Assembly (NCBI RefSeq): GCF_009733735.1
Contig: NZ_WNJP01000013.1
Location: forward strand, 1 to 34,287
From: Sandarakinorhabdus oryzae
GTDB lineage: Bacteria > Pseudomonadota > Alphaproteobacteria > Sphingomonadales > Sphingomonadaceae
DNA length: 34,287 nt
Reading direction: 5' to 3'
Below are positions 3,420-34,148 of the stretch, piece by piece (the stretch's first letter is position 1; each line of letters starts with the position of its first letter). Under the pieces are notes generated by a model. It had not been told where the DNA came from. It searched no databases and worked only from the letters and a program-made list of their open reading frames with translations. The translations under genes were made by a program, and so were the position numbers.

Positions 3420-3574
3420 CTGCCAGAGCCCTGGTGGTCTGAGTATAATCCGGTACTGCCGGCTGCCGGGGCCGCTGGTTAATTCTCGCTCACTGCCCCG
3501 GCCAGACCTCCCGGTTCCCCCCGGACCCGGCGCCGGGGCAGTACCCCTGCCAGCAGGCCGGAAAGGAAGGCGCC

Positions 3575-3763
3575 ATGAGCATCAACAAGAATCGCATCGC
3601 CGGTGCTGGCAAGCAGGTTGCCGGCGCCACCAGGGAAGCCGCTGGCAAGCTGGTCGGCGACAAGAGCCTGGAACTGTCGGGCAAGGTCGAAAAGACCGCG
3701 GGCAAGGTGCAGAGCGCCGTCGGCAAGGCGACGGCCAAGATCAAGGACAGGGCTAAAAAGTGA
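3575..3763 (+). CDS. CsbD family stress-response protein
   Basis: This 62-residue, very basic hydrophilic protein opens with MSINKNRIAGAGKQVAGATREAAGK and continues in Lys/Ala/Gly-rich amphipathic helical repeats (GKLVGDKSLELSGKVEKTAGK...). That is the compact CsbD layout. CsbD-like proteins are small cytosolic proteins induced by general stress in many bacteria; their biochemical role is unknown. A good GGAAAGGAAGG lies just before the ATG. It is followed 48 bp later by a DUF3309 gene, and the two may form one unit. Confidence 0.9.
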   Translation: MSINKNRIAGAGKQVAGATREAAGKLVGDKSLELSGKVEKTAGKVQSAVGKATAKIKDRAKK

Positions 3764-3811: not shown

Positions 3812-3970
3812 ATGTCGATCGTCACGATCATCATCATCCTGCTCGCGCTCGCGTTGCTTGGCGTGCTGCCCATCTGGCGGCACAGCGGCCGCTGGGGCTT
3901 TGCCCCCAGCGGCGTGTTCGGCGTCGTTCTGGTCGTGCTGGTCATCATGGTTGTTGCCGGCCGCCTGTGA
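3812..3970 (+). CDS. DUF3309 family small membrane protein
   Basis: This 52-residue open frame begins MSIVTIIIILLALALLGVLP, then has IWRHSGRWGFAPSG and a second hydrophobic stretch to the end (VVLVIMVVAGRL). Two membrane segments separated by a short W..S..WG..PSG loop are the hallmark of DUF3309 proteins, which are 50-60 residues long and common in alphaproteobacteria. They are of unknown function and often sit near stress genes. It lies directly downstream of csbD-like 3575-3763. The short length and full match to the family pattern make this a genuine gene rather than chance. Confidence 0.87.
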   Translation: MSIVTIIIILLALALLGVLPIWRHSGRWGFAPSGVFGVVLVVLVIMVVAGRL

Positions 3971-4067: not shown

Positions 4068-7000
4068 GTGAAGAAGAGTCGGCCTCCACGCCTGCCGGAT
4101 GCGGCAGCGCCTCACACGTCGCGCATGATGGTGGTGGCCATTGGCGGTTCCGCCGGTGCGCTGGATGCCGTGCGCGGGCTGATTGCCGGGCTGCCGGCGC
4201 GCAGTGGCATTGCCTATATCCTGGTCCAGCATCTCGATCCCGGTCATCCCTCGCTGCTGGCCGATCTGCTGGTCGATGAAACGCCCTTTCCGGTGCTTGA
4301 AGCCAGCGATGGCATGCCCCTGCTGGCCGATCGCCTGCATGTCATCCCGTCGGGCACCCGCATTGCGGTGGCCGATGGCATATTGCGCCTCACGCCTTCG
4401 ACCCAGAACGAGGGCCCGCGCCTGCCGGTCGATTTCCTGCTGCAATCGCTCGCCACCCAGCCCGAACTGCGGGTGGTGGCCGTGCTGCTGTCGGGCAATG
4501 GTGCCGATGGCCGCGAAGGCGTGCGCGCCATTCACGATGCCGGCGGCTATGTGATCGCGCAGGATCCGGCTGAAGCCGGCCACGACAGCATGCCCGCCAC
4601 CGCCATCGCCACCGGCTGCGTTGATGCCATCCTGCCGGTGGCGGCCATGGGCGCCGCGATCATCGATCGCCGCAACCGGCTGCCGCTGCCAACCCTCACC
4701 GGCAAGGACTGGATCAGCCCGGTGCTCGACCGGTTGAAGAGCAGCGGCCATGATTTCAGCGGCTACAAGCTGGGCACCATGCAGCGCCGCATCGAACGCC
4801 GCGCCCGCATGGCCGGCCATGGCGCCGGCAGCGGTGCCGAGGCGCTGGCCGTCTATGTCAGCCGGCTTGACGATGACGAGGCGGAGCTGCAGGCGCTGGC
4901 CAACGACCTGCTGATCAACGTCACCGGCTTCTTCCGCGACCACGAGGTGTTTGCGACGCTGGCCAGCTCGATCCTGCCCGACCTGGTGCGCCGCCACGAC
5001 GACGTGCAGCCGATCCGGCTGTGGTGCGCCGGCTGCAGCACGGGGGAGGAGGCCTGGTCGCTGGCCATGCTGGTGCTGGAGGAAATCGCCCGCAGCCGGC
5101 CGACGCTGAAGCTGCAATTGTTCGCCACCGATCTTGATCCCGATGCCATCGCCGCGGCGCGCCACGGCGTCTATCCGCCCGGCATCGAACGCGAAGTCTC
5201 GCCCGAACGGCTGCAACGCTTCTTTGCCGCCGATGATCATGGCTGGCGGGTCGGCCCGGCGCTGCAATCATCGGTGGTGTTTGCCGTCCACGATCTGCTC
5301 ACCGATCCGCCGTTCAGCCGCATCGACATGATCTCCTGCCGCAACCTGCTGATCTATCTGCAGCCGCCGGCCCAGGCCCGGGCCATCGGCCTGTTCCACT
5401 TCGCGCTGCGCCCCGGCGGCCTGCTGTTGCTGGGCAAGGCCGAAACCGTGTCCGACCCGGCCGACGCGCCGGCGCCGGCCTTCACCCTGATCTCGCGCCA
5501 GGCCCATATCTATCGCCGCAACGCCAGCCACCGGCCACCGCCAGCGCTGGGCACCGATACCGGCGCGCCGGTGGGGCTGCGGCTGGCCGCGCCCACCCTG
5601 CCGTCGGCCCGTCTGCAGGCGCTGGAGGCGGAATTGGCCAGCATCCGCGCCGAACTGGCCAACGCCGATCGCCATCTGGGCGATTTCGATCCCGAACTGC
5701 AGGCCATCCAGGCCGACACGCTGTCGCGCAATCAGGAATATCAGAGCACCAACGAGGAATTGATCACCTCGCAGGAGGAACTGCAATCGCTGAACGAGGA
5801 GCTCGTGGCGCTGAACGGCCAGCTGCAGGAGACCATCGATCGCCAGCGCACCATGGCCGACGATCTGCAGAACATCCTCAACAGCACCAATGTCGCGACC
5901 ATCTTCCTCGATCTCGACAGCCACATCCGCTTCTTCACGCCGGCCACCCGCACGCTGTTCAACATGCTGCCCGGCGACATTGGCCGGCCCTTTGCCGATC
6001 TGGCGCCGATCACCCCGGATCCAACACTGGCCAGCGACATCGCCAGCGTGCGCACCGGCGCGCAGCCGCCGGATCGCGAGATCGAATCCGCCGATGGCAC
6101 CTGCTTCAGCCGCCGGGTGCTGCCCTACCGCGCCCACGACAATCATGCCGAAGGGGTGATCATCACCTATACCGATGTTTCAGAACGCAAGCGATCCGAA
6201 CATGTCATGCTGGAGGCGCGGGAGTCGGCCGAGGCCGCCAACCTTGCCAAGTCACGCTTCCTGGCCGCGGCCAGCCATGATCTGCGTCAGCCGCTGCAAT
6301 CGATGGTGCTGTTGCAGGAACTGCTGGCGCGCAAGACGACTGACCCTGAAAAGCAGGCGCTGCTCGCCCGGCTGGACCACACGCTCGATGCCATGGCGGC
6401 GATGCTGGACGGCCTGCTCGACATCAACCGCATCGAAGCCGACGCGGTGGAAATCGCGCCGGGCAGCTTCCCGCTCGACAGCCTGCTGGCCGAAACCGTG
6501 TCCGGGTTGAGCGAACAGGCGGCCGCCGGCCAGCTGACCCTGCGCCATGTGCCGACCAGCTGCCATGTCGTCTCCGATCGCCGCCTGCTCGCCGGCATGG
6601 TGCGCAACCTGGTGGCCAATGCCATCAAGTACACCGAAAAGGGCGGCGTGCTGCTCGGCGCGCGCCGGCGCGGCAACATGGTGCGCATCGAGGTGTGGGA
6701 CACCGGCATCGGCATTCCGACCGACAAGCTGGAAACCATCTTCAAGCCCTATCAGCAGCTGGGCCCGACCCTGATCGACCGCAGCCGCGGCCTGGGCCTG
6801 GGCCTCGCCATCGTGCGCAGCCTGGCGGACATGCTGGACCACAAGATCGAGGTACAATCCTGGCCGCATGGCGAACATCCGCGCCATGGCTCGGTGTTCA
6901 GCATCATCGTGCCCCTGGCCACGCCGGATCCGACCGGTTCAGGCGATGGGCCGCTGTTGCTGGCCGCGCCCGCCACGCCGGCGTCGGAGCCGGCCGCTGC

Positions 7001-8048
7001 GCCTGCCCCCGGCTCGGCCAGCATCCTGGTGATCGACGATGATCCCGATCTGCTGGAGCTGCTCGACGAACTGCTGCGCGCCGCCGGTCACGCGGTGGCC
7101 ACCGCCCGCGACGAGGCCGAGGCGATGGCCAGCCTTGCCGCACAGACGCCAGACCTGATCATTTCCGATTTCCGCCTGATGGGGCCGCGCGACGGGCTGG
7201 AACTGGTGGTCGATCTGCGCGCCGCGCTGCTGGAAACCCACGGGCGCACCGTGCCGGTGATCATGTTGACCGGCGACATTGCCATCGAGGCGCTGGTGCG
7301 CTTTGCCGCCAACGACATCGTGCGCCTGGCCAAGCCGGTCCGTCCGGTGGAATTGCACGCCGCCATTGCGGCGGCCCTGGGCGATGCGGCGGCCGATGCA
7401 GCGGCAGCGCCGGTCGCTGATCCGAACGCGCCCGCCCTTGTGCATGTGATCGAGGATGATCCCGATGCACTGGCCGAATTCGGCATCCTGCTGGCCGGTG
7501 CCGGCCTGCCTGCCCTGCTGCATGCTTCGGCCGAAGCCTTCCGCGCGGCGTGGCGGCCCGGACAGGGCGGTTGCCTGCTGGTCGATGCCGTGCTGCCCGG
7601 CGAAGGCGGCCTGGAACTGCTGGCCAATCTGAAGGCTGCAGGCGCGCTGCCGCCCAGCATCATGATCACCGGCCAGGGCGATATCGGGCTGGCCGTGGCG
7701 GCGATGAAGGCCGGTGCCATGGATTTCATTGAAAAGCCGGCGCCCGGCCAGGCCATTATTGACAGCATCCGCCGCGCCCTGGCCCAGGGCCGTGCCGGCG
7801 GCGAAGTGGCAAGCGCCGCGCATCTGGCCGCCGTGGCCCGGCTGGCGACGCTGACACCGCGCCAGCGCGAGGTGATGGCGCTGGTGCTGGATGGCCATCC
7901 CAGCAAGAATATCGCGGCCGATCTGAAACTGAGCCAGCGCACCGTGGAAAACCACCGCGCCGAAATCATGCACCGCACCAAGTGCCGATCCTTGCCGGAA
8001 CTGGCCCGGCTGGCCATGGCCGCCGATCCCGGCGGGGTCCGCGGCTAA
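4068..8048 (+). CDS. CheB-CheR-PAS-histidine kinase-REC-REC-LuxR fusion protein
   Basis: This is a 1326-residue cytosolic signalling protein with no membrane segment. Domains in order: CheB methylesterase (about 20-200; GGSAG Ser28, QHLDP His55, GNGADG Asp147 form the expected triad); CheR methyltransferase (about 212-485; RRIERR, TGFFRD, CAGCSTGEEAWS, ISCRNLLIYL); a Glu/Gln-rich coiled coil (about 515-600); PAS (about 600-705); HisKA with His737 in AASHDLRQP; HATPase_c (N851, DTGIGIP, GLGLGLAI); receiver 1 (about 984-1105, Asp1034 in ISDFRL); receiver 2 (about 1123-1240, Asp1173 in LLVDAVLPG, Lys at IEKP); and a LuxR/FixJ HTH (about 1258-1318, LTPRQREVM...SQRTVENHRAEI). All catalytic residues look intact, so one chain could sense, phosphorylate and regulate DNA. 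The start is GTG with GAGAGG about 10 nt upstream. It is apparently monocistronic. Confidence 0.93.
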   Translation: MKKSRPPRLPDAAAPHTSRMMVVAIGGSAGALDAVRGLIAGLPARSGIAYILVQHLDPGHPSLLADLLVDETPFPVLEASDGMPLLADRLHVIPSGTRIAVADGILRLTPSTQNEGPRLPVDFLLQSLATQPELRVVAVLLSGNGADGREGVRAIHDAGGYVIAQDPAEAGHDSMPATAIATGCVDAILPVAAMGAAIIDRRNRLPLPTLTGKDWISPVLDRLKSSGHDFSGYKLGTMQRRIERRARMAGHGAGSGAEALAVYVSRLDDDEAELQALANDLLINVTGFFRDHEVFATLASSILPDLVRRHDDVQPIRLWCAGCSTGEEAWSLAMLVLEEIARSRPTLKLQLFATDLDPDAIAAARHGVYPPGIEREVSPERLQRFFAADDHGWRVGPALQSSVVFAVHDLLTDPPFSRIDMISCRNLLIYLQPPAQARAIGLFHFALRPGGLLLLGKAETVSDPADAPAPAFTLISRQAHIYRRNASHRPPPALGTDTGAPVGLRLAAPTLPSARLQALEAELASIRAELANADRHLGDFDPELQAIQADTLSRNQEYQSTNEELITSQEELQSLNEELVALNGQLQETIDRQRTMADDLQNILNSTNVATIFLDLDSHIRFFTPATRTLFNMLPGDIGRPFADLAPITPDPTLASDIASVRTGAQPPDREIESADGTCFSRRVLPYRAHDNHAEGVIITYTDVSERKRSEHVMLEARESAEAANLAKSRFLAAASHDLRQPLQSMVLLQELLARKTTDPEKQALLARLDHTLDAMAAMLDGLLDINRIEADAVEIAPGSFPLDSLLAETVSGLSEQAAAGQLTLRHVPTSCHVVSDRRLLAGMVRNLVANAIKYTEKGGVLLGARRRGNMVRIEVWDTGIGIPTDKLETIFKPYQQLGPTLIDRSRGLGLGLAIVRSLADMLDHKIEVQSWPHGEHPRHGSVFSIIVPLATPDPTGSGDGPLLLAAPATPASEPAAAPAPGSASILVIDDDPDLLELLDELLRAAGHAVATARDEAEAMASLAAQTPDLIISDFRLMGPRDGLELVVDLRAALLETHGRTVPVIMLTGDIAIEALVRFAANDIVRLAKPVRPVELHAAIAAALGDAAADAAAAPVADPNAPALVHVIEDDPDALAEFGILLAGAGLPALLHASAEAFRAAWRPGQGGCLLVDAVLPGEGGLELLANLKAAGALPPSIMITGQGDIGLAVAAMKAGAMDFIEKPAPGQAIIDSIRRALAQGRAGGEVASAAHLAAVARLATLTPRQREVMALVLDGHPSKNIAADLKLSQRTVENHRAEIMHRTKCRSLPELARLAMAADPGGVRG

Positions 8049-8108: not shown

Positions 8109-8807
8109 TCAGGACGCGACGGTTGCCATGGTGGCCCGGCGACGCGCGGTGAAGCCGACCATGCCGAAGCCGGCCAGCATCATCGCCCAGCTCGACGGTT
8201 CCGGCACACCGCCGGTGGGGCCTTCGCCAACCGAACCGGCGAACGAGCCGGCGACATTGGCGTTGAACGGGGTGCCATAACCGTTGGCGGCCACGGTGAA
8301 GGCCGGCGTCAGCCCGGTGAAGGCCAGCGAGAAGTTGCGGAAGTCGAAGTCCGGCAGGGTCAGCAGGTTCGACGTATAGCTGATCGGATTGCTCGGATCG
8401 GTCGAGATCATGCTGGCCGAACCGCCGGCGCCATCAAAGCTGAAGGTGGCGTTGGTGAAGTTCACGTCAAGATAGTTGGCGCCATTGCCGAAGTGGATGT
8501 TGCCGGTCCAGCCGAGCTGCTGAAACTGCGGGCCCAGGCTGGTGACCATGGCGTTCGAACTGGCCGACATCGTCATGGTCGACGGATAGAAACCGATCGG
8601 GCCAAACGCGCTGACCACGAAATAGACCGGCGATTCCAGGATGGTCAGGCTGTTGCCACCGGCAATCGCGTTGTACTGCGCGATCTTGTTGGAGGTCTGC
8701 TGGGTGAACTGCGCAAAGGTCACCGAGCCGCTGTCAACGGCCAGCGCCGGGCTGGCGAGAATGGCAGCCGCAATCGCGGCGCCGGCGAAATTTCGGAAGA
8801 GTGTCAT
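8109..8807 (-). CDS. PEPxxWA-CTERM sorting domain protein
   Basis: The protein has 232 residues. A Sec signal peptide (about 1-23, ASPALA) leads a Ser/Gly/Asn/Phe-rich secreted body of beta-type composition. The C-terminus has the full sorting tail: VPEPSSWAMMLAGFGMVGF followed by ARRR. This PEPxxWA variant is characteristic of sphingomonads. Such tails are processed by exosortase (EpsH/XrtA-type) enzymes, often linked to exopolysaccharide or biofilm; no exosortase gene is in this window. The body does not resemble a known enzyme. AAGGGGC precedes the ATG by about 9 nt. The substrate or role of the mature protein is unknown. Confidence 0.88.
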   Translation of the reverse strand: MTLFRNFAGAAIAAAILASPALAVDSGSVTFAQFTQQTSNKIAQYNAIAGGNSLTILESPVYFVVSAFGPIGFYPSTMTMSASSNAMVTSLGPQFQQLGWTGNIHFGNGANYLDVNFTNATFSFDGAGGSASMISTDPSNPISYTSNLLTLPDFDFRNFSLAFTGLTPAFTVAANGYGTPFNANVAGSFAGSVGEGPTGGVPEPSSWAMMLAGFGMVGFTARRRATMATVAS

Positions 8808-11336: not shown

Positions 11337-12761
11337 ATGGCCGCAACAAAATTGCTGAAGTTTGTCGAACGCAGCCAGGCCTATCCGGCCAAGCGCGCCG
11401 CCGACGAACGCGCCCATGATTTCCTCGAGATCAGCCGGCCTTATATCCTGGCCAAGGCCGAGGAGCAGGCCGGGCGCTGTAGCCAGTGCGGCGTGCCCTT
11501 CTGTCAGGTGCATTGCCCGCTGCAGAACAACATCCCCGACTGGCTGAAGCTGACGGCGGAAGGCCGGCTGCAGGAAGCCTATGAAGTCTCGTCGGCCACC
11601 AACGCCATGCCGGAAATCTGCGGCCGCATCTGCCCGCAGGACCGGCTATGCGAAGGCAATTGCGTGATCGAGCCCGGCTTTGGCAGCGTCACCATCGGTT
11701 CGGTGGAAAAATTCCTGACCGACAACGCCTGGGAACAGGGCTGGGTGAAGCCGCTGAAGCCCGTCGCCGACCGTTCGGGCCAGAGCGTCGCCATCATCGG
11801 CGCCGGCCCGGCGGGCCTCACCGCCGCCGAGGCGCTGCGGGTGAAGGGTTATGAGGTGCATGTCTATGACCGGCACGATCGCGCCGGCGGGCTGCTCACC
11901 TATGGCATCCCCGGCTTCAAGCTGGAAAAGCCGGTGGTCATGCGCCGGGTTGAGCGGCTGCGCGAGGGCGGCGTGCACTTCCACGCCGGTTTTGCGGTGG
12001 GTGTTGATGCCAGCCTGGCCGATCTGCGCGAAGAGCATGACGCGGTGCTGATCGCCACAGGGGTCTACAAGGCGCGCCAGGTCGAGGTGCCGGGCGCCGA
12101 TGGCCCGAGCACGATGGAAGCGCTGGACTATCTGATTGCCGCCAACAGGAGTGGTTTCGGCGATGTGCTGGCCGATGCAGCGATGTTCGATGCGGCGGGC
12201 AAGCATGTCGTTGTGATCGGTGGTGGCGACACCGCGATGGACTGCGTGCGCACCGCTGTGCGCCAGGGCGCGGCCAGTGTGAAATGCCTCTACCGCCGTG
12301 ACCGCGCCAACATGCCGGGGTCGGTGCGTGAAGTCGCCAATGCCGAGGAAGAGGGCGTCGAATTCGTCTGGCTGGCCGCGCCGGCCGAGATCACGGCCAC
12401 CGGTGTGGTGGCGCAGGGCATGCGGCTGGGCCAGCCCGGCCCGGATGGCCGCCGCTCGCCGGAGCCTGATGCCGACAATCGCTTCACTCTCAAGGCCGAT
12501 CTGGTGATCAAGGCGCTGGGCTTTGATGCCGAGGATCTGCCCACCCTGTTTGGCGCGCCCGAACTGCCGGTGACGCGCTGGGGCACGGTGCGGGTGGATC
12601 ACAAGACGATGATGACCGGCATGGATGGCGTGTTCGCCGCCGGCGACATCGTGCGCGGCGCCAGCCTGGTGGTGTGGGCGGTGCGTGACGGACGTGACGT
12701 GGCGGCGCAGATGCACCAGTATCTGCGCAGCCGTGCCACTGCGGCCGTCGAGGCCGCCTGA
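11337..12761 (+). CDS. gltD: Glutamate synthase (NADPH) small subunit GltD
   Basis: The 474-residue subunit has N-terminal Cys motifs for two [4Fe-4S] clusters: C48-x2-C51-x4-C56-x3-C60 and C95-x3-C99-x5-C105-x3-C109. An FAD-binding Rossmann motif (IIGAGPAGLTAAEAL, about 150) and a second nucleotide motif (VIGGGDTAMDCVRTA) for NADPH follow. A C-terminal FAD segment contains GVFAAGDIVRG. It passes electrons from NADPH to GltB for conversion of glutamine and 2-oxoglutarate to two glutamates. ATG 11337 was preferred to the upstream start at 11301 because GAAAGGA lies just before it and the family N-terminus begins there. gltB follows after one intervening gene. Confidence 0.97.
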   Translation: MAATKLLKFVERSQAYPAKRAADERAHDFLEISRPYILAKAEEQAGRCSQCGVPFCQVHCPLQNNIPDWLKLTAEGRLQEAYEVSSATNAMPEICGRICPQDRLCEGNCVIEPGFGSVTIGSVEKFLTDNAWEQGWVKPLKPVADRSGQSVAIIGAGPAGLTAAEALRVKGYEVHVYDRHDRAGGLLTYGIPGFKLEKPVVMRRVERLREGGVHFHAGFAVGVDASLADLREEHDAVLIATGVYKARQVEVPGADGPSTMEALDYLIAANRSGFGDVLADAAMFDAAGKHVVVIGGGDTAMDCVRTAVRQGAASVKCLYRRDRANMPGSVREVANAEEEGVEFVWLAAPAEITATGVVAQGMRLGQPGPDGRRSPEPDADNRFTLKADLVIKALGFDAEDLPTLFGAPELPVTRWGTVRVDHKTMMTGMDGVFAAGDIVRGASLVVWAVRDGRDVAAQMHQYLRSRATAAVEAA

Positions 12762-12793
12762 TGCGGCCGGCGTTTTCCCAAGGACAATCGACC

Positions 12794-13368
12794 ATGAAGA
12801 TTCTGATCGCTGCCACTGCTGCTGTCGCCCTGGCCGGCACCGCCCAGGCGCAGGCGGCAAAGGCCGATCCGGCGACGCTGCAATCAGCGGCGGCTGTGGT
12901 GGCGCAGCTGGGGGTGAAGGCCAAGCTGCAGGCGCAGATGGCGAACACTGTGGCGCAGATGCGAACGGGCGTCGTCATCCGCTCGATGCTGGCGCAGCAG
13001 CCGGGCTTCATCCCGGCCTATCAGGCCAACAAGGCGAAGTTTGATACGGTGCTGGCCAAGGCCGGGGCGCTGCAGGCGGACATTGCCCAGGGCGTCATCA
13101 ACCAGAATCTCAATGGCGTGGTGAATGCTGCCACCCAGGCCTATGCCCGCCAATATACCAAGGCCGAACTTGATGGGATTCTGGCCTTTTATCGCAGCCC
13201 GGCCGGCCAGGCGGTAATCCGCAAGGAACCCGCCGTCGCCGCGGCCATCGGCCAGGCCACCGGCCAGATGATTGGCGCGAAGATCGATGCTGCCATGCAA
13301 GCCAATGCCAAGCGGCTGACCGAAGTGCTCAGCCCGCTGAACGGCACCGGACAACAGGGACGCAAGCC

Positions 13369-13372
<4 letters not shown>
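12794..13372 (+). CDS. Exported DUF2059 domain protein
   Basis: The 192-residue precursor has a Sec signal peptide (MKILIAATAAVALAGTAQAQ). The helical body carries the DUF2059 signature near residues 115-145 (YARQYTKAELDGILAFYRSPAGQAVIRKEP). DUF2059 proteins are periplasmic and of unknown function. ATG 12794 was chosen because AAGGA precedes it and the signal peptide starts there. It is inserted between gltD (33 bp upstream) and gltB, whose ATG overlaps its stop as ATGA, so translation of gltB is probably coupled to it. Nothing known links DUF2059 to glutamate synthesis, so the placement may reflect expression coupling only. Confidence 0.88.
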
Positions 13373-28766: not shown

Positions 28767-28814
28767 AAACGCGGTTTGAAGCCGGTTGGGCGATCCTGGG
28801 GGAGATGATTGGGG

Positions 28815-31805
28815 ATGAATACGTCGATCCGTCCGGCCTTTGGCCGTTTCATGGCTTGCGCATCGGTCGTGGCCCTGGGTGTGGCTGCACAGCCGGCGCT
28901 GGCACAGGCGCAGACGGCTGCCGCTGCCGATGAGGGCAACAGCGAGGAAATCATCGTCACCGGCATCCGCGCCAGCTTGCAGAAATCACTGAGCGTGAAG
29001 CGCGACGCGCTGGGTGTCGTCGATGCCATCTCCGCCGAAGACATCGGCAAGTTCCCCGATACCAACCTCGCCGAATCGCTGCAGCGCATCACCGGCGTGT
29101 CGATTGACCGCCAGAACGGCGAAGGCTCCAAGGTCACCGTTCGCGGCTTCGGCCCGGATTACAACCTGGTGCTGCTGAACGGCCGTCAGATGCCGGCCTC
29201 GGGACTGGGCAGCTGCTGCGAGGCGCCGGCCTCGCGCTCGTTCGATTTCGCCAATCTTGCCGCCGAAAGCGTCGCGGGCGTCGAAGTCTACAAGTCGGGC
29301 CGTGCCACGCTGCAGACCGGCGGCATCGGTTCGGTCATCAACATCAAGACGCCGCGTCCGCTTGATCGCCTGGGTTTCAAGGGCAGCATCTCGGTCAAGG
29401 GCATGATCGATCATACCTTCGAGGACACGAAGGTGACGCCGGAAATCTCCGGCATTCTCAGCAAGACATTCGCTGATGATCGCGTCGGCATCCTCGTCAC
29501 TGGCGTCTACCAGCGCCGCAAGGCGAGCCTGACGCAGTTTGGCGCCGGCTTCCGCGAAGGCTATCAGGGCTTTGAAAACAACTGGGGCTCGCTGCCGGTC
29601 GACGCCAACGACTGGCGCGGCAATTATGCCAAGACCCAGAACCGCCCGGGCGCGAACGACATCTATCAGGTCGTCCAGAACGCCGGCTATGACTTCATCG
29701 ACATCGATCGTGAACGCATCAATGGCCAAGTCGTGCTGCAGGTGAAGCCCACCGACACGCTCGACATGACCGTGGACTATACCTTCTCGCAGAACACCAT
29801 TGACGCCCGCACCAACAGCATCGGCGTGTGGTTCAACCACAACAACACCAGCAGCAGCTGGACGCCTGGCCCGGTTTCGGGCGCCAACTTCTATGCCGAG
29901 GATTTCGGCCCGGGCGAAGGCAAGGATCTGGCCATCACCGGCGCGCTGGCGGCCAACCGCAACATCAACCGTTCCATCGGCGGCAACATCAAGTGGGACG
30001 GCCCCGGCGGCCTGCGCGTCGAACTCGATGCGCACCACTCGACCGCGGAATCGAAGCCGACCTCGCCTTATGGCAGCAACAGCGCCGTCGGCAGCGCCAT
30101 CTATGGCGTCGCCAGCCAGAAGGTCGATTTCAGCACCAAGATGCCGGTGATCTCGGTCGCCATGTATCCGGGCGCGGAAATCAAGGCGTCCAACATCCGG
30201 CCGGCCGGCAACAGCTTCCGCAACGGCTACATGAAGGACACGATCAACGAAGTCTCGCTGCGCGGCGGCTATGACTTTGAATCGGATCTGATCAAGAGCC
30301 TCGATTTCGGCGTCACCTACACCGAGAACAAGGTGCGCTCTGCCTTCGGCGTCATCCAGAACGACACCTGGGGCGGCACGCTGAGCGCGGCCGACACGCC
30401 GGATGCCCTTTATGCCATCACCCCGCTGGCCGCGAACCTGGCCGGCATGGACGGCTCGCAGAGCTCGGCCATCATCCCGAGCTATTTCCAGGTTGATACC
30501 GCCGGCCTGGTGACGCTGCTCCAGAGCCGTATCGGCATCTGCAACGCCAGCACCGTCCAGGGCGCTTGCCTGGCCAGCTATGGCACCGACCGGCGCATCC
30601 GCGAGGAAACCTGGGCGCCCTATATCCAGTCGACGCACCGGTTTGACATCGGCGACATGCGCGCCAACATCCGCCTTGGCCTGCGCTACGAACAGACGCG
30701 CATTTCCTCGTCGGCGCTGGCCCCGGTTCCGACCGGTGTCGTCTGGCAGGCCGCCAACGAAATGGGCCTGATCGGTGGCAACAGCAACTCGAGCTTCACC
30801 ACGCTCAAGGGCAAGTATGAGAACTGGCTGCCGGCCTTCGATTTCGACCTGGCACCGACCAGCAGCATCCGCCTGCGCGCGTCCTACAGCCACACCATCA
30901 CGCGCCCGGATTACACCAGCATGCAGGGCGGCATCACGGTCAACCAGCCGCTGCGCCCGAACGGTGGCAGCACTGCCGGCAGCGGCAACCCAGGCCTGCT
31001 GCCCTACAAGTCGAAGAATATCGACCTGTCGGCGGAGTGGTATTACGGCAAGGACAGCTACATCTCGGTGGGCTTCTTCCACAAGGATGTGAGCAACTAT
31101 ATCGCCAACACCACCACTCAGGGGCCGCTGTTTGATCTGCCCAACCCGGCGCAGGGCGCGGCGGTGCAGGCGGCGCGCACGGCGCTGGGTGGCACGCCCG
31201 GTTATGCCGACATCCTGGCCTGGCTGGCCACCAACAACCCGGCCGTCGTCCGCTTCGAGAATATTGAAGGGGTCAACACGCCCACCGGCATCATCGGCCA
31301 GGCGTCCGATCCAAAGGTGGTGTTCACTATCACCCAGCCGGGCAACAGCAGCCAGACCGCCAAGCTGCACGGCTTTGAATTCGCCGTTCAGCACAGCTTC
31401 TGGGATACCGGCTTCGGCGCAATCCTGAACTACACGATCGTGCGCAGCGACACCCGTTTCGACAACACGCTGCGCTACACCGCCACCCAGTTCGCGGTGA
31501 CCGGGGTCAGCGACAGTGCCAACGCCGTGCTCTATTACGACAAGAACGGTATCCAGGCCCGTGTCGCCTACAACTGGCGCGATGGCTTCCTGTCGGGCTA
31601 TGGCTTCGATCCGTCCTACATCGAACCCTATGGCCAGTTCGACGTCTCGGCCTCGTGGGAGTTCAAGAAGGGCTTCACCGCCTTTGTTGAAGGCATCAAC
31701 ATCACCAATGCCGATCGCCGCGGCCACATGCGCAGCGACAAGGCGGTGCAGTTCGCCGCGCCGGGCTATGCCCGCTACACGGCCGGGGTGCGCTACAGCT
31801 TCTGA
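28815..31805 (+). CDS. TonB-dependent receptor
   Basis: The 996-residue outer-membrane receptor has a signal peptide (about 1-31, QPALAQ) and a TonB-box-like stretch (EEIIVTGIRASLQKSL). The plug domain (about 45-180) contains GKFPDTNLAESLQRITGVSIDR and VRGFGPDYNLVLLNGRQMP. A long 22-strand type barrel follows, and the last residue is Phe (YTAGVRYSF). The 'GIRASLQ.SL..KR.A..VVDAISAEDIGKFPD' start belongs to the Xanthomonas/Caulobacter-type receptor subfamily linked to oligosaccharide uptake. The plug has adjacent cysteines (GSCCEAP). The ligand is unknown. It is followed by halogenase-like, SapC and cupin-like genes, a typical set. ATG 28815 follows a G-rich ribosome site. Confidence 0.95.
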   Translation: MNTSIRPAFGRFMACASVVALGVAAQPALAQAQTAAAADEGNSEEIIVTGIRASLQKSLSVKRDALGVVDAISAEDIGKFPDTNLAESLQRITGVSIDRQNGEGSKVTVRGFGPDYNLVLLNGRQMPASGLGSCCEAPASRSFDFANLAAESVAGVEVYKSGRATLQTGGIGSVINIKTPRPLDRLGFKGSISVKGMIDHTFEDTKVTPEISGILSKTFADDRVGILVTGVYQRRKASLTQFGAGFREGYQGFENNWGSLPVDANDWRGNYAKTQNRPGANDIYQVVQNAGYDFIDIDRERINGQVVLQVKPTDTLDMTVDYTFSQNTIDARTNSIGVWFNHNNTSSSWTPGPVSGANFYAEDFGPGEGKDLAITGALAANRNINRSIGGNIKWDGPGGLRVELDAHHSTAESKPTSPYGSNSAVGSAIYGVASQKVDFSTKMPVISVAMYPGAEIKASNIRPAGNSFRNGYMKDTINEVSLRGGYDFESDLIKSLDFGVTYTENKVRSAFGVIQNDTWGGTLSAADTPDALYAITPLAANLAGMDGSQSSAIIPSYFQVDTAGLVTLLQSRIGICNASTVQGACLASYGTDRRIREETWAPYIQSTHRFDIGDMRANIRLGLRYEQTRISSSALAPVPTGVVWQAANEMGLIGGNSNSSFTTLKGKYENWLPAFDFDLAPTSSIRLRASYSHTITRPDYTSMQGGITVNQPLRPNGGSTAGSGNPGLLPYKSKNIDLSAEWYYGKDSYISVGFFHKDVSNYIANTTTQGPLFDLPNPAQGAAVQAARTALGGTPGYADILAWLATNNPAVVRFENIEGVNTPTGIIGQASDPKVVFTITQPGNSSQTAKLHGFEFAVQHSFWDTGFGAILNYTIVRSDTRFDNTLRYTATQFAVTGVSDSANAVLYYDKNGIQARVAYNWRDGFLSGYGFDPSYIEPYGQFDVSASWEFKKGFTAFVEGINITNADRRGHMRSDKAVQFAAPGYARYTAGVRYSF

Positions 31806-31833
31806 CCGGGGGCAACCGGTTGGGTCGCCGGAA

Positions 31834-31867
31834 GGGCCGCGCGCGCAAGCGTTGCGGCTCTTCTTGC
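31834..31867 (+). terminator. Hairpin between TonB receptor and halogenase gene
   Basis: GGGCCGC (31834-31840) pairs with GCGGCTC (31854-31860) with one G-T pair, and TTCTTGC follows. It may partially end receptor transcripts, so that the downstream genes are expressed at lower level, or be a processing site. The 94-bp gap has no clear second promoter. Confidence 0.42.
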
Positions 31868-31899
31868 GCTCTGCCACTGTGTGAGCACGAGAGGACGAG

Positions 31900-33423
31900 G
31901 TGACGGGTGAGACGCCATATCGGGTGGTGATCGTTGGCGGCGGCAGCGCCGGCTGGCTCACCGCCTGCGTGCTCGCCGCGCGCCGGCCCGGCCTCGCCAT
32001 CACGCTGGTCGAATCGCCCGACATCCCGACCATCGGCGTGGGTGAGGGCACCTGGCCGACGATGCGCGAGACGCTGGCCAACATCGGCATCAGTGAAAGC
32101 GAATTTCTCGTCGCCTGCGATGCCGCGTTCAAGCAGGGCTCGCGCTTCGATGGCTGGGTGACCGGCGAAGCCGGCGATTCCTATCTCCACCCCTTCACCC
32201 TGCCGCCCGCCGGCGACACGGCGGCGCTGCTGCACGCCTGGGCCGCCATGGCACCCGGCATGCCGTTTGCCGCGGCGATGACAGCCCAGGCCGCGGCCTG
32301 CGCCCGTGATCTGGCGCCGCGCCAGCGGACCATGCCGGACTATGGCGGCGCACTGAACTATGCCTATCACTTCGATGCCGGCAAGTTCGCCCGGCTGCTC
32401 GGCCGCCACGCCACGCAGCGCCTGGGCGTCACCCACATCGCCGCCGACGTGGTGGCGACGCAGGGGGCGCCCAATGGCGACATTGAAGCGCTGGTGCTGG
32501 GCGATGGCCGCACGCTGGCGGCTGACCTGTTCATCGATTGCACGGGCCAGGCCGCGCGGCTGATCGGCGGCCATTGCGGCGTGGCGTGGATCGACCGCAG
32601 CACCGTCTCGTTCAATGATCGCGCGCTCGCAGCCCAGGTGCCGGTGCTGCCCGGCAGCCCGGTCGCCTCGCAGACCATCGGCACCGCGCACAGGGCGGGG
32701 TGGATCTGGGACATTGCGCTGCCGACACGGCGCGGCATTGGTTGCGTCTACAGTTCCCGCTTCATGGCCGATGACGAGGCCGATGCGGTGCTGCGCGCCC
32801 ATGTTGCCGCCCATGTGTCGGGCGTCGATGTCGCGGCGCTCAGCCCGCGCAAGCTCAGCTTTGCCACTGGCCACCGCGCGCGCTTCTGGCAGGGCAATGT
32901 CGTTGCCGTCGGTTTGTCGGCCGGCTTCATCGAGCCGCTGGAGGCGTCCGCCATCGTGCTGATCGAGCTGTCGGCCCGGGCGCTGGCCGAGGCGCTGCCG
33001 GCCAGTCCGGCGGTGATGGCGGTGCAGGCCAAGCGCTTCAACGACCAGTTCCGCACCCGCTGGGAGCGGATCATCGCCTTCCTGAAGCTGCACTATGTGC
33101 TCAGCCAGCGCAGCGAGCCCTATTGGCTGGCGCAGCGCGACCCGGCGACCATCCCGGAACGGCTGGCCGAAGACCTGGTGTTGTGGCGCGAACAGCCGCC
33201 CTCGGCCCGCGATTTCCCGTTGCACGACGAGATGTTTCCGGCCGCCAGCCAGCATTATATCCTCTACGGCATGGGCTATGGCCTGCCGCTGCCACCGCCG
33301 GCGCCTGCAATCACCGCTGCCGCCGCCCGCATCGCCGAGGTGCAGGAGCGCGCGCGTCGCATCACCGCCGCTCTTCCCGACAACCGCAGCTATCTCGCCG
33401 CCATCGCCGCCCAGGCCGCCTGA
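31900..33423 (+). CDS. Tryptophan 7-halogenase family flavoprotein
   Basis: The 507-residue flavin-dependent halogenase homologue has an FAD site [18 protein letters not shown] (GxGxxG at 13-18) and [11 protein letters not shown] (about 45-55). The FKQG motif holds Lys78, matching the Lys that activates hypohalous acid in PrnA/RebH. GWIWDIAL (about 267-274) corresponds to the WxWxIP motif but ends in Ala-Leu instead of Pro. The second conserved Glu region is [11 protein letters not shown] (Glu345, Glu348). These residues suggest a working enzyme; the substrate in TonB-receptor loci is generally unknown, with indole-type substrates reported for related locus-borne enzymes. The start is GTG 31900 with AGAGGA before it. 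SapC follows 8 bp later. Confidence 0.92.
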
Positions 33424-33431
33424 GGATCATC

Positions 33432-34148
33432 ATGCCCAACCACCAGATTGTCACGCCCGCCGAACACGCCGATCTGCGCGTGCATGTGGGGGCCGGCGCG
33501 GCGCTGGGCGATGCGGTGATGGCCTGCATTGCCGTGCCCGCCGAATTCCGCCGTCTCGCCGTCGATTACCCGATACTGTTTCGGCAGGACGAGGAAAGCG
33601 GCGCCTTTTCGGCGCTGGCCCTGTTCGGCTTCGAACCGGGCGAGAATCTGTTCCTTGATGGTAATGACTGGGATGCCGTCAACCGGCCGCTCGCGATGGT
33701 CGTGCAGCCCTTCCTCGTCGGCCGCAGCCGCGACGGCGATGGGCCGGGCCAGGTCCATATCGACATGGACCATCCGCGCGTGTCGCACAGCGGTGAGGGC
33801 ATGCGCCTGTTCGAACCGAGCGGCGTGGCGACGCCCTATCTCGAACAGATTGCCGATCTGCTCGGCGCGCTCGATGGCAGCCACCGCGCCAGTGGCGATT
33901 TCTATGCCGCGCTCAGCCGCTATGACCTGCTCGAGCCGTTCTCGATGGACGTCACGCTCGACAACGGCGCCATGCACCGGCTGGTTGGTTATCACCTGAT
34001 CGCCGAGGAGAGACTGGCGGCGCTGGAACCCGGCGTGCTGTCCGAACTGCACGCCGCCGGCCATCTGCTGCCGATCTACATGGCGGTGGCGTCAGTGGGG
34101 AACCTGACCCGGCTGGTGCGCCGCAAGAACAAGCGCGGTGATGGCTGA
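33432..34148 (+). CDS. SapC family protein
   Basis: The 238-residue protein shows the SapC pattern. The N-terminal part is AVPAEFRRLAVDYPILFRQDEESGAFSALALFGFEPGENLFL. WDAVNRPLAMVVQPFLVG follows, then HIDMDHPRVS and LFEPSG.ATPYL. The C-terminus is helical (EERLAALEPGVLSELHAAGHLLPIYMAVASVGNL). SapC proteins were named from Campylobacter S-layer neighbours, but in sphingomonads and Caulobacter they accompany TonB receptors and halogenase-like genes, role unknown. No signal peptide. ATG 33432 is 8 bp after the halogenase stop; the long frame extending upstream inside the halogenase gene is a shadow. Its stop overlaps the next gene by 8 bp. Confidence 0.92.
   Translation: MPNHQIVTPAEHADLRVHVGAGAALGDAVMACIAVPAEFRRLAVDYPILFRQDEESGAFSALALFGFEPGENLFLDGNDWDAVNRPLAMVVQPFLVGRSRDGDGPGQVHIDMDHPRVSHSGEGMRLFEPSGVATPYLEQIADLLGALDGSHRASGDFYAALSRYDLLEPFSMDVTLDNGAMHRLVGYHLIAEERLAALEPGVLSELHAAGHLLPIYMAVASVGNLTRLVRRKNKRGDG

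Follow-up and report, generated by a model that had tools for sequence, protein, structure and literature searches.

In chemotaxis adaptation, the methyltransferase CheR and the methylesterase CheB act on glutamates of methyl-accepting chemotaxis proteins (MCPs) that are spaced seven residues apart. Among hybrid kinases, NahK carries neither CheB-CheR nor a fused helix-turn-helix (HTH), and the Bacteroides hybrid two-component systems combine a sensor, a kinase, a receiver and a DNA-binding domain within a single polypeptide. Here we analyse a stretch of 34,287 nucleotides from Sandarakinorhabdus oryzae (NCBI RefSeq assembly GCF_009733735.1, contig NZ_WNJP01000013.1, positions 1 to 34,287, forward strand; called the window, at its whole length), in which a single gene encodes CheB, CheR, PAS, histidine kinase, two receivers and a FixJ-type HTH. 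Its protein shares the one-chain plan of the Bacteroides systems; these differ in being membrane proteins with an AraC-type HTH and one receiver, and in lacking CheB and CheR. Ahead of its PAS domain runs a long helix with Glu-Glu pairs, and chemoreceptor methylation sites have the same spacing and environment as these pairs. On the basis of sequence comparison, we think it somewhat probable that the protein is a hybrid sensor kinase equipped with its own adaptation enzymes, whose CheR and CheB domains would methylate and demethylate its own helix and so tune kinase and transcriptional output.

The architecture itself is common and already annotated; the self-adaptation reading is the new part. 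The interest lies in what CheB and CheR act on, a question that the earlier note on this DNA did not raise. We found no study characterising this architecture, or self-methylating CheB-CheR kinases, in the open-licence full-text literature. A survey of Azospirillum, in the portion accessible, tabulates hybrid kinases with CheB and methyltransferase domains as 'sensing' domains (PMC4618731), and the accessible portion of the S-helix paper (PMC1592074) does not mention CheB or CheR.

Domain composition of the fusion protein

The gene and its parts occupy the following positions in the window.

4068..8048, + strand: CheB-CheR-PAS_10-HisKA-HATPase-REC-REC-GerE fusion gene; 1326 amino acids (aa), GTG start, one open frame
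4134..4661, + strand: CheB methylesterase domain, residues 23-198; triad S28/H55/D147; no N-terminal receiver
4737..5456, + strand: CheR methyltransferase, CheR_N part (residues 224-250) and S-adenosylmethionine (SAM) domain (residues 284-463); GCSTGEE motif; CheR_N below the Pfam cut-off
5691..5885, + strand: long helix, residues 542-606, with Glu-Glu pairs E563/564, E570/571 and E577/578 at 7-residue spacing; proposed methylation sites
5865..6179, + strand: PAS_10 domain (Pfam), residues 600-704; presumed sensor
6246..6920, + strand: kinase core, HisKA and HATPase_c, residues 727-951; H737, N851
7023..7367, + strand: receiver 1, residues 986-1100; D1034
7434..8027, + strand: FixJ-like module, residues 1123-1320, receiver 2 (D1173) and GerE/LuxR HTH; profile and PDB matches

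Both adaptation enzymes match their Pfam profiles well above cut-off, CheB_methylest (PF01339) at residues 23-198 with 158.5 bits (cut-off 24) and CheR (PF01739) at residues 284-463 with 163 bits (cut-off 27), the SAM-binding motif being present as GCSTGEE. The CheR_N part (residues 224-250) scores 25.8 bits, marginally below its cut-off of 27, which is passed by the relatives L033, L115, L120, L034 and L038. CheB begins at residue 23, and the N-terminal receiver by which the full CheB protein controls its esterase was not found. Farther along the chain, Pfam places PAS_10 at 600-704 (87.8 bits), HisKA at 727-791 (41.7 bits), HATPase_c at 837-951 (74.1 bits) and GerE at 1261-1316 (56.7 bits), and Response_reg matches in two stretches, the best at 986-1100 and the second receiver at about 1127-1215. 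HisKA, HATPase and a receiver stand in one chain with their H, N and D residues present, which makes the protein a hybrid histidine kinase. The earlier note had read this domain order in a single frame from the letters, and Pfam and frame analysis bear it out; a residue check also found all seven of its catalytic residues correct (S28, H55, D147, H737, N851, D1034 and D1173). Its phrase 'whole phosphorelay' does not stand, since no HPt family is among the 24 Pfam matches of the fusion protein at E up to 1, and a His-Asp-His-Asp relay inside the chain therefore cannot be claimed.

The same note's view that the C-terminus is a complete FixJ-like protein agrees with the best PDB match, full-length FixJ (5xso) over residues 1123-1319. 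Residues 1123-1320 align along all of FixJ (NCBIfam NF006900, 204.2 bits; PDB 5xso, 117 bits), with REC and GerE in FixJ order. Unlike FixJ in the FixL/FixJ system, this part is fused to its kinase, and it stays under the FixJ equivalog cut-off of NF006900 (204.2 vs 255 bits). The kinase core and receiver 1 (residues 722-1102) resemble the NahK/ErcS hybrid kinases (NCBIfam NF041832, 300 bits), although the match is below the 400-bit cut-off of that family.

A sequencing or assembly artefact joining two genes can be ruled out, because intact full-length frames occur in isolates and on plasmids: at 70-81% identity in L110, L111 (Sandarakinorhabdus rubra isolate) and L112, and at about 50% identity in other genera. 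Among the five closest CheB-CheR loci (the window and L110, L111, L112 and L113), the frame is broken in one, the metagenome assembly L113/L031. There, the orthologue at L113:5925-9918 is frameshifted immediately past the ATPase domain, which separates the FixJ part.

Paired glutamates and chemotaxis partners

Each of the three Glu-Glu pairs on the helix has Thr, Ser or Ala at +4 counted from its first Glu. An AlphaFold model of residues 1-720 (mean pLDDT 66.8, pTM 0.34) supports a continuous helix over 542-606. The triple motif (EE followed by a small residue, three times at 7-residue spacing) was found in 89 of 2308 distinct open reading frames (ORFs) of at least 250 aa from the fetched loci, which overlap, so that these are not all different genes; 88 of the 89 have strict Glu and one has Gln. 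A CheR motif stands in the same frame in 85 of them, and the remaining four are, as we judge from their length and sequence, also CheR fusions, whose frame is broken or cut or whose motif is a variant. Some relatives (L033, L035, L036 and L115) have about 125-140 additional residues separating CheR and helix, and many exceed the window protein in length.

The likeness to chemotaxis receptor adaptation comprises the same two enzymes, Glu pairs at 7-residue steps on a helix, and small residues after them, whereas the differences are that one chain holds both kinase and output, that CheB has no receiver of its own, and that the host genome has no MCP or CheW match. Searches for chemoreceptors (PF00015) and CheW (PF01584) found no match in this genome, which is 99.3% complete, while each search matched in 7 of 14 genomes as a control. 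The CheR of the fusion gene is the only CheR found in the host genome. Of the 12 other homologue-bearing genomes, nine have no MCP match and three do (G053, G064 and G081, with 20, 7 and 13 matches, respectively). A chemotaxis role in this genome is unsupported, and the non-chemotaxis role proposed in the earlier note fits both the missing MCP and CheW matches and the presence of CsbD and DUF3309 as neighbours of stress type; the searches did not cover flagellar genes.

Loss of CheR together with the glutamate pairs

Absence of the Glu-Glu pairs was first seen in L114, which has neither CheB nor CheR and none of the pairs, and more relatives were collected afterwards. We scored 56 rows, the window included. 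All three pairs are present in each of the 38 rows whose CheB triad and two CheR motifs are in place. They are also present in 6 of 6 further rows with smaller defects: a Gln in the SAM motif (L216), a CheB start out of frame (L116), CheB cut by a contig edge (L208 and L214), CheB in a separate gene (L233) or a frameshift inside CheR (L206). In contrast, no pair or one pair remains in all ten rows in which CheR is lost (L114, L165, L211, L226, L228, L229 and L236-L238) or degenerate (L164). In L162, where CheR is intact and CheB is defective (mostly deleted or lacking the triad), two pairs remain. The CheB-CheR-PAS_10 proteins without a kinase match (L038, L050, L056, L121, L152-L156, L158, L160 and L163) are outside the 56 rows, and each has at least five Glu-Glu pairs ahead of PAS.

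We placed these changes on a maximum-likelihood tree of the kinase-receiver part with 54 rows; L113 and L215, which are partial frames, were scored and omitted from this tree, and L212, which duplicates L165, was neither scored nor placed in either tree. On the 54-row tree, CheR state changes six times and motif state seven times, the seventh motif change being that of L034. Loss of CheR and loss of the motif coincide in all six of the independent pairs, which lie on well-supported branches (sign test p 0.031, range 0.031-0.0625), and they coincided in 3 of 3 on a smaller, earlier tree. Because the co-loss hypothesis arose from L114, five of the six events are later tests.

The individual losses differ in kind. 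L114 lies at the orthologous locus, flanked as in the window by the PEP-CTERM gene (downstream) and a transglutaminase gene (upstream), which means that the loss occurred at this site; its helix is retained but rewritten. In L228, the CheB triad is intact, CheR is missing and one pair remains. In the Shinella rows (L229 and L236-L238), CheR and helix are separately missing, with the stretch between them kept (by eye); CheB is present and its triad is broken. We call the CheR of L164 degenerate because this row has no CheB, no CheR_N, and CRH instead of CRN. L206 was counted as CheR-bearing, given that L205, its near sister, is intact and that the frameshift may have arisen recently or be erroneous; if counted as broken, it is a CheR loss without motif loss, on a short branch next to L205.

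Proposed self-adaptation and its alternatives

In the mechanism that we propose, the PAS domain would sense an intracellular signal, and the long helix ahead of it would relay its state to the HisKA/HATPase core. The CheR domain would methylate, and the CheB domain demethylate, E563/564, E570/571 and E577/578, in cis or across a dimer, and methylation of the helix would reset the activity of the kinase, as happens with receptor methylation in chemotaxis. H737 could pass phosphate to D1034 of receiver 1, perhaps a sink or a feedback input; as CheB has no receiver of its own, D1034 perhaps supplies the feedback input that CheB is missing. Phosphate could also pass from H737 to D1173 of the FixJ-like end, which would then bind DNA, probably at stress genes such as csbD. 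The computation itself shows the domain content, the catalytic motifs, the lack of any chemoreceptor or CheW match, and the joint loss of CheR and the Glu-Glu helix among relatives; methylation, its influence on the kinase, the phosphate route, the signal and the targets are inferred.

Several observations weigh against self-methylation. The p value for co-loss comes from six events, and the bootstrap was not yet stable. Some of these events are open to other accounts: L165/L211 and L226 could each reflect one truncation removing CheR and helix together, the kinase of L114 is degenerate as well (N-box and G2 box), and the GCGTGQE of L164 is weak evidence because its sister L216 has GCSTGQE plus all three pairs. 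Conversely, L034 keeps CheR yet has only one of three pairs, most of its CheB being deleted, and L206 keeps all three pairs with a frameshifted CheR; checking L206 and L216 lowered our confidence slightly. L050 and L056 have Asn for the triad Asp of CheB, yet keep the Glu-Glu helix. In the four loss rows that keep the helix, the Glu pairs are eroded no more than their conserved helix neighbours (10/24 vs 37/64 kept), and both are more eroded than the PAS columns (113/128 kept), indicating that the whole motif block decays and not the glutamates alone; the dependence on CheR is thus a property of the block as a whole. Finally, the AlphaFold model, at its pTM of 0.34, gives no usable domain arrangement or contacts, and co-loss fits non-covalent docking of CheR and CheB on the helix equally well.

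Docking of this kind is the strongest rival. CheB and CheR would then have ceased to be enzymes and would control the kinase by binding to the Glu-rich helix with no methyl transfer, serving for instance as a scaffold or as a sensor of SAM levels. Such binding modules would be lost with the helix just as enzymes would, and the CheR_N score slightly under cut-off, the decay of the helix neighbours along with the Glu pairs, and the pairs retained in L050 and L056 despite an altered CheB triad all suit them. Against docking stands the state of the catalytic residues. In the 44 rows outside the two defect groups (CheR lost or degenerate; CheB defective), the Ser-His-Asp triad of CheB is intact in 39, and the other five CheBs are out of frame (L116), cut by a contig edge (L208 and L214), encoded separately (L233) or in a different frame (L206); the GC..GEE motif of CheR is intact in 42 and CRN in all 44. 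We regard docking as unlikely on balance. That the Glu-Glu heptads are a mere coiled-coil spacer, holding the large N-terminal part and decaying once that part is deleted, seems improbable to us. Two of the six losses (L165/L211 and L226) do resemble N-terminal truncations, but in L228 and the Shinella rows the helix motif decays or is deleted even though CheB and the segment following CheR are still there. Moreover, the Glu pairs are identical in all 44 of those rows, beyond what a coiled coil should need, and no ORF of the sample other than the CheR fusions carried the motif. Least probable, by a small margin, is action of CheB and CheR in trans, on chemoreceptors or on some other protein, with the kinase as a separate function in the same chain. 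The chemoreceptors of G053, G064 and G081 would allow it, whereas the lack of any MCP or CheW match in the window genome, and of MCP matches in most of the other homologue genomes, argues against it; action in trans would also leave the co-loss of CheR and helix unexplained. For this genome, such action on chemoreceptors is mostly refuted already.

Self-methylation is our preferred reading. The broader claim, that a whole adaptive circuit lies in one protein, with a transcription-regulating sensor kinase methylating and demethylating glutamates of its own helix, and that CheR/CheB adaptation operates outside chemoreceptors, in a stress-gene-regulating family across Alphaproteobacteria and some plasmids, stands in our estimate barely above even. 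Annotated CheB-CheR fusions are widespread, with 252 plasmid records matching the CheB-CheR part of the window protein, and such fusions bear chemotaxis names, although no chemoreceptor match exists in this genome. If their own signalling helix is the substrate, methylation-based adaptation would belong to two-component gene regulation and not to taxis alone, and the names of a sizeable protein family would need correcting. The three glutamate pairs make self-methylation testable with one purified protein.

Distribution and variants of the fusion

The class sample was a PAS_10 search in 96 genomes, and for plasmid loci 21 of the 27 records of one match list were examined. Homologues (E 1e-100 or better) are present in 13 of the 98 genomes searched, including that of the window. 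Relatives that are about 50% identical along almost their full length are found in Rhodopila, Humitalea, Oleispirillum and others, as well as on plasmids of Sphingomonas, Acidiphilium, Methylocystis, Caballeronia, Agrobacterium and others. CheB, CheR, kinase and GerE stand in one frame in 34 of the 56 scored rows, the window included, and 30 of these 34 have all checked CheB and CheR motifs. A unique fusion is ruled out by this shared order. The earlier note had implied that the architecture is rare and had named beforehand, as a finding that would count against it, that the exact order is common, which it is.

Variants depart from this order. L119, L120 and L231 have neither receiver 2 nor GerE; most of CheB is missing from the Devosia copy L034; and in Methylocapsa polymorpha (L233), CheB is encoded by a separate adjoining gene. 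CheB-CheR-PAS fusions with or without a kinase share the N-terminal CheB-CheR, the Glu-rich helix and PAS_10 with the window protein. Some of them have no kinase match past PAS (L152-L156, L160 and L163), whereas the window protein continues with kinase, two receivers and the FixJ-type HTH. In plasmid records, such fusions are named 'chemotaxis protein CheB' or 'CheR family methyltransferase', names that point to chemotaxis. GGDEF-EAL forms the end of 2 of 23 rows, which we take to be L050 and L056.

The surroundings of the fusion vary as well. Beside the Polymorphobacter fusion, divergent separate genes encode a lone CheB domain and a lone receiver (L221:691-1660), and a lone receiver gene also lies divergently upstream of the fusion in L218, L223, L225 and L234. 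A subgroup of fusions (L227-L230 and L238) stands between a response-regulator gene with glutamate-1-semialdehyde aminomutase and polysaccharide genes, a neighbourhood that hints at exopolysaccharide control.

Genomic context

The fusion gene of the window is flanked by the following features.

3493..3541, no strand assigned: inverted repeat CTGCCCCGG-N31-CCGGGGCAG, preceding csbD
3575..3763, + strand: CsbD-like stress protein gene, upstream and in the same direction as the fusion
3812..3970, + strand: gene for a small DUF3309 protein, lying between csbD and the fusion
8109..8807, - strand: PEP-CTERM protein gene, convergent neighbour; conserved in L110-L115

Among the 91 fetched loci, CsbD-like genes are near the fusion in six (L110-L114 and L033) and DUF3309 in four (L111, L112, L033 and L225). 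Some plasmid neighbours are of stress type (Dps, universal stress protein, ferritin-like and DJ-1 proteins) and others are not.

The inverted repeat is perfect (CTGCCCCGG, a loop of 31-35 bases, CCGGGGCAG). Of 14 genomes searched, the six with this locus have one copy each, and the eight other genomes of the same genus have none. It is retained in L114, which kept the HTH and lost CheB-CheR. The six copies fold as a hairpin (z -2.2 to -3.8), the outer stem shows paired changes between relatives by eye, and Rfam gave no match for the repeat. It may be an operator of the fusion HTH or a 5'UTR hairpin of csbD; being single-copy and bound to the locus, and either operator or hairpin, it is a lead only on the target genes.

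Elsewhere in the window, a DUF2059 gene (12761-13372) lies between gltD and gltB with a few-base overlap with both, and TonB receptor, tryptophan halogenase and SapC genes follow one another at 28809-34148.

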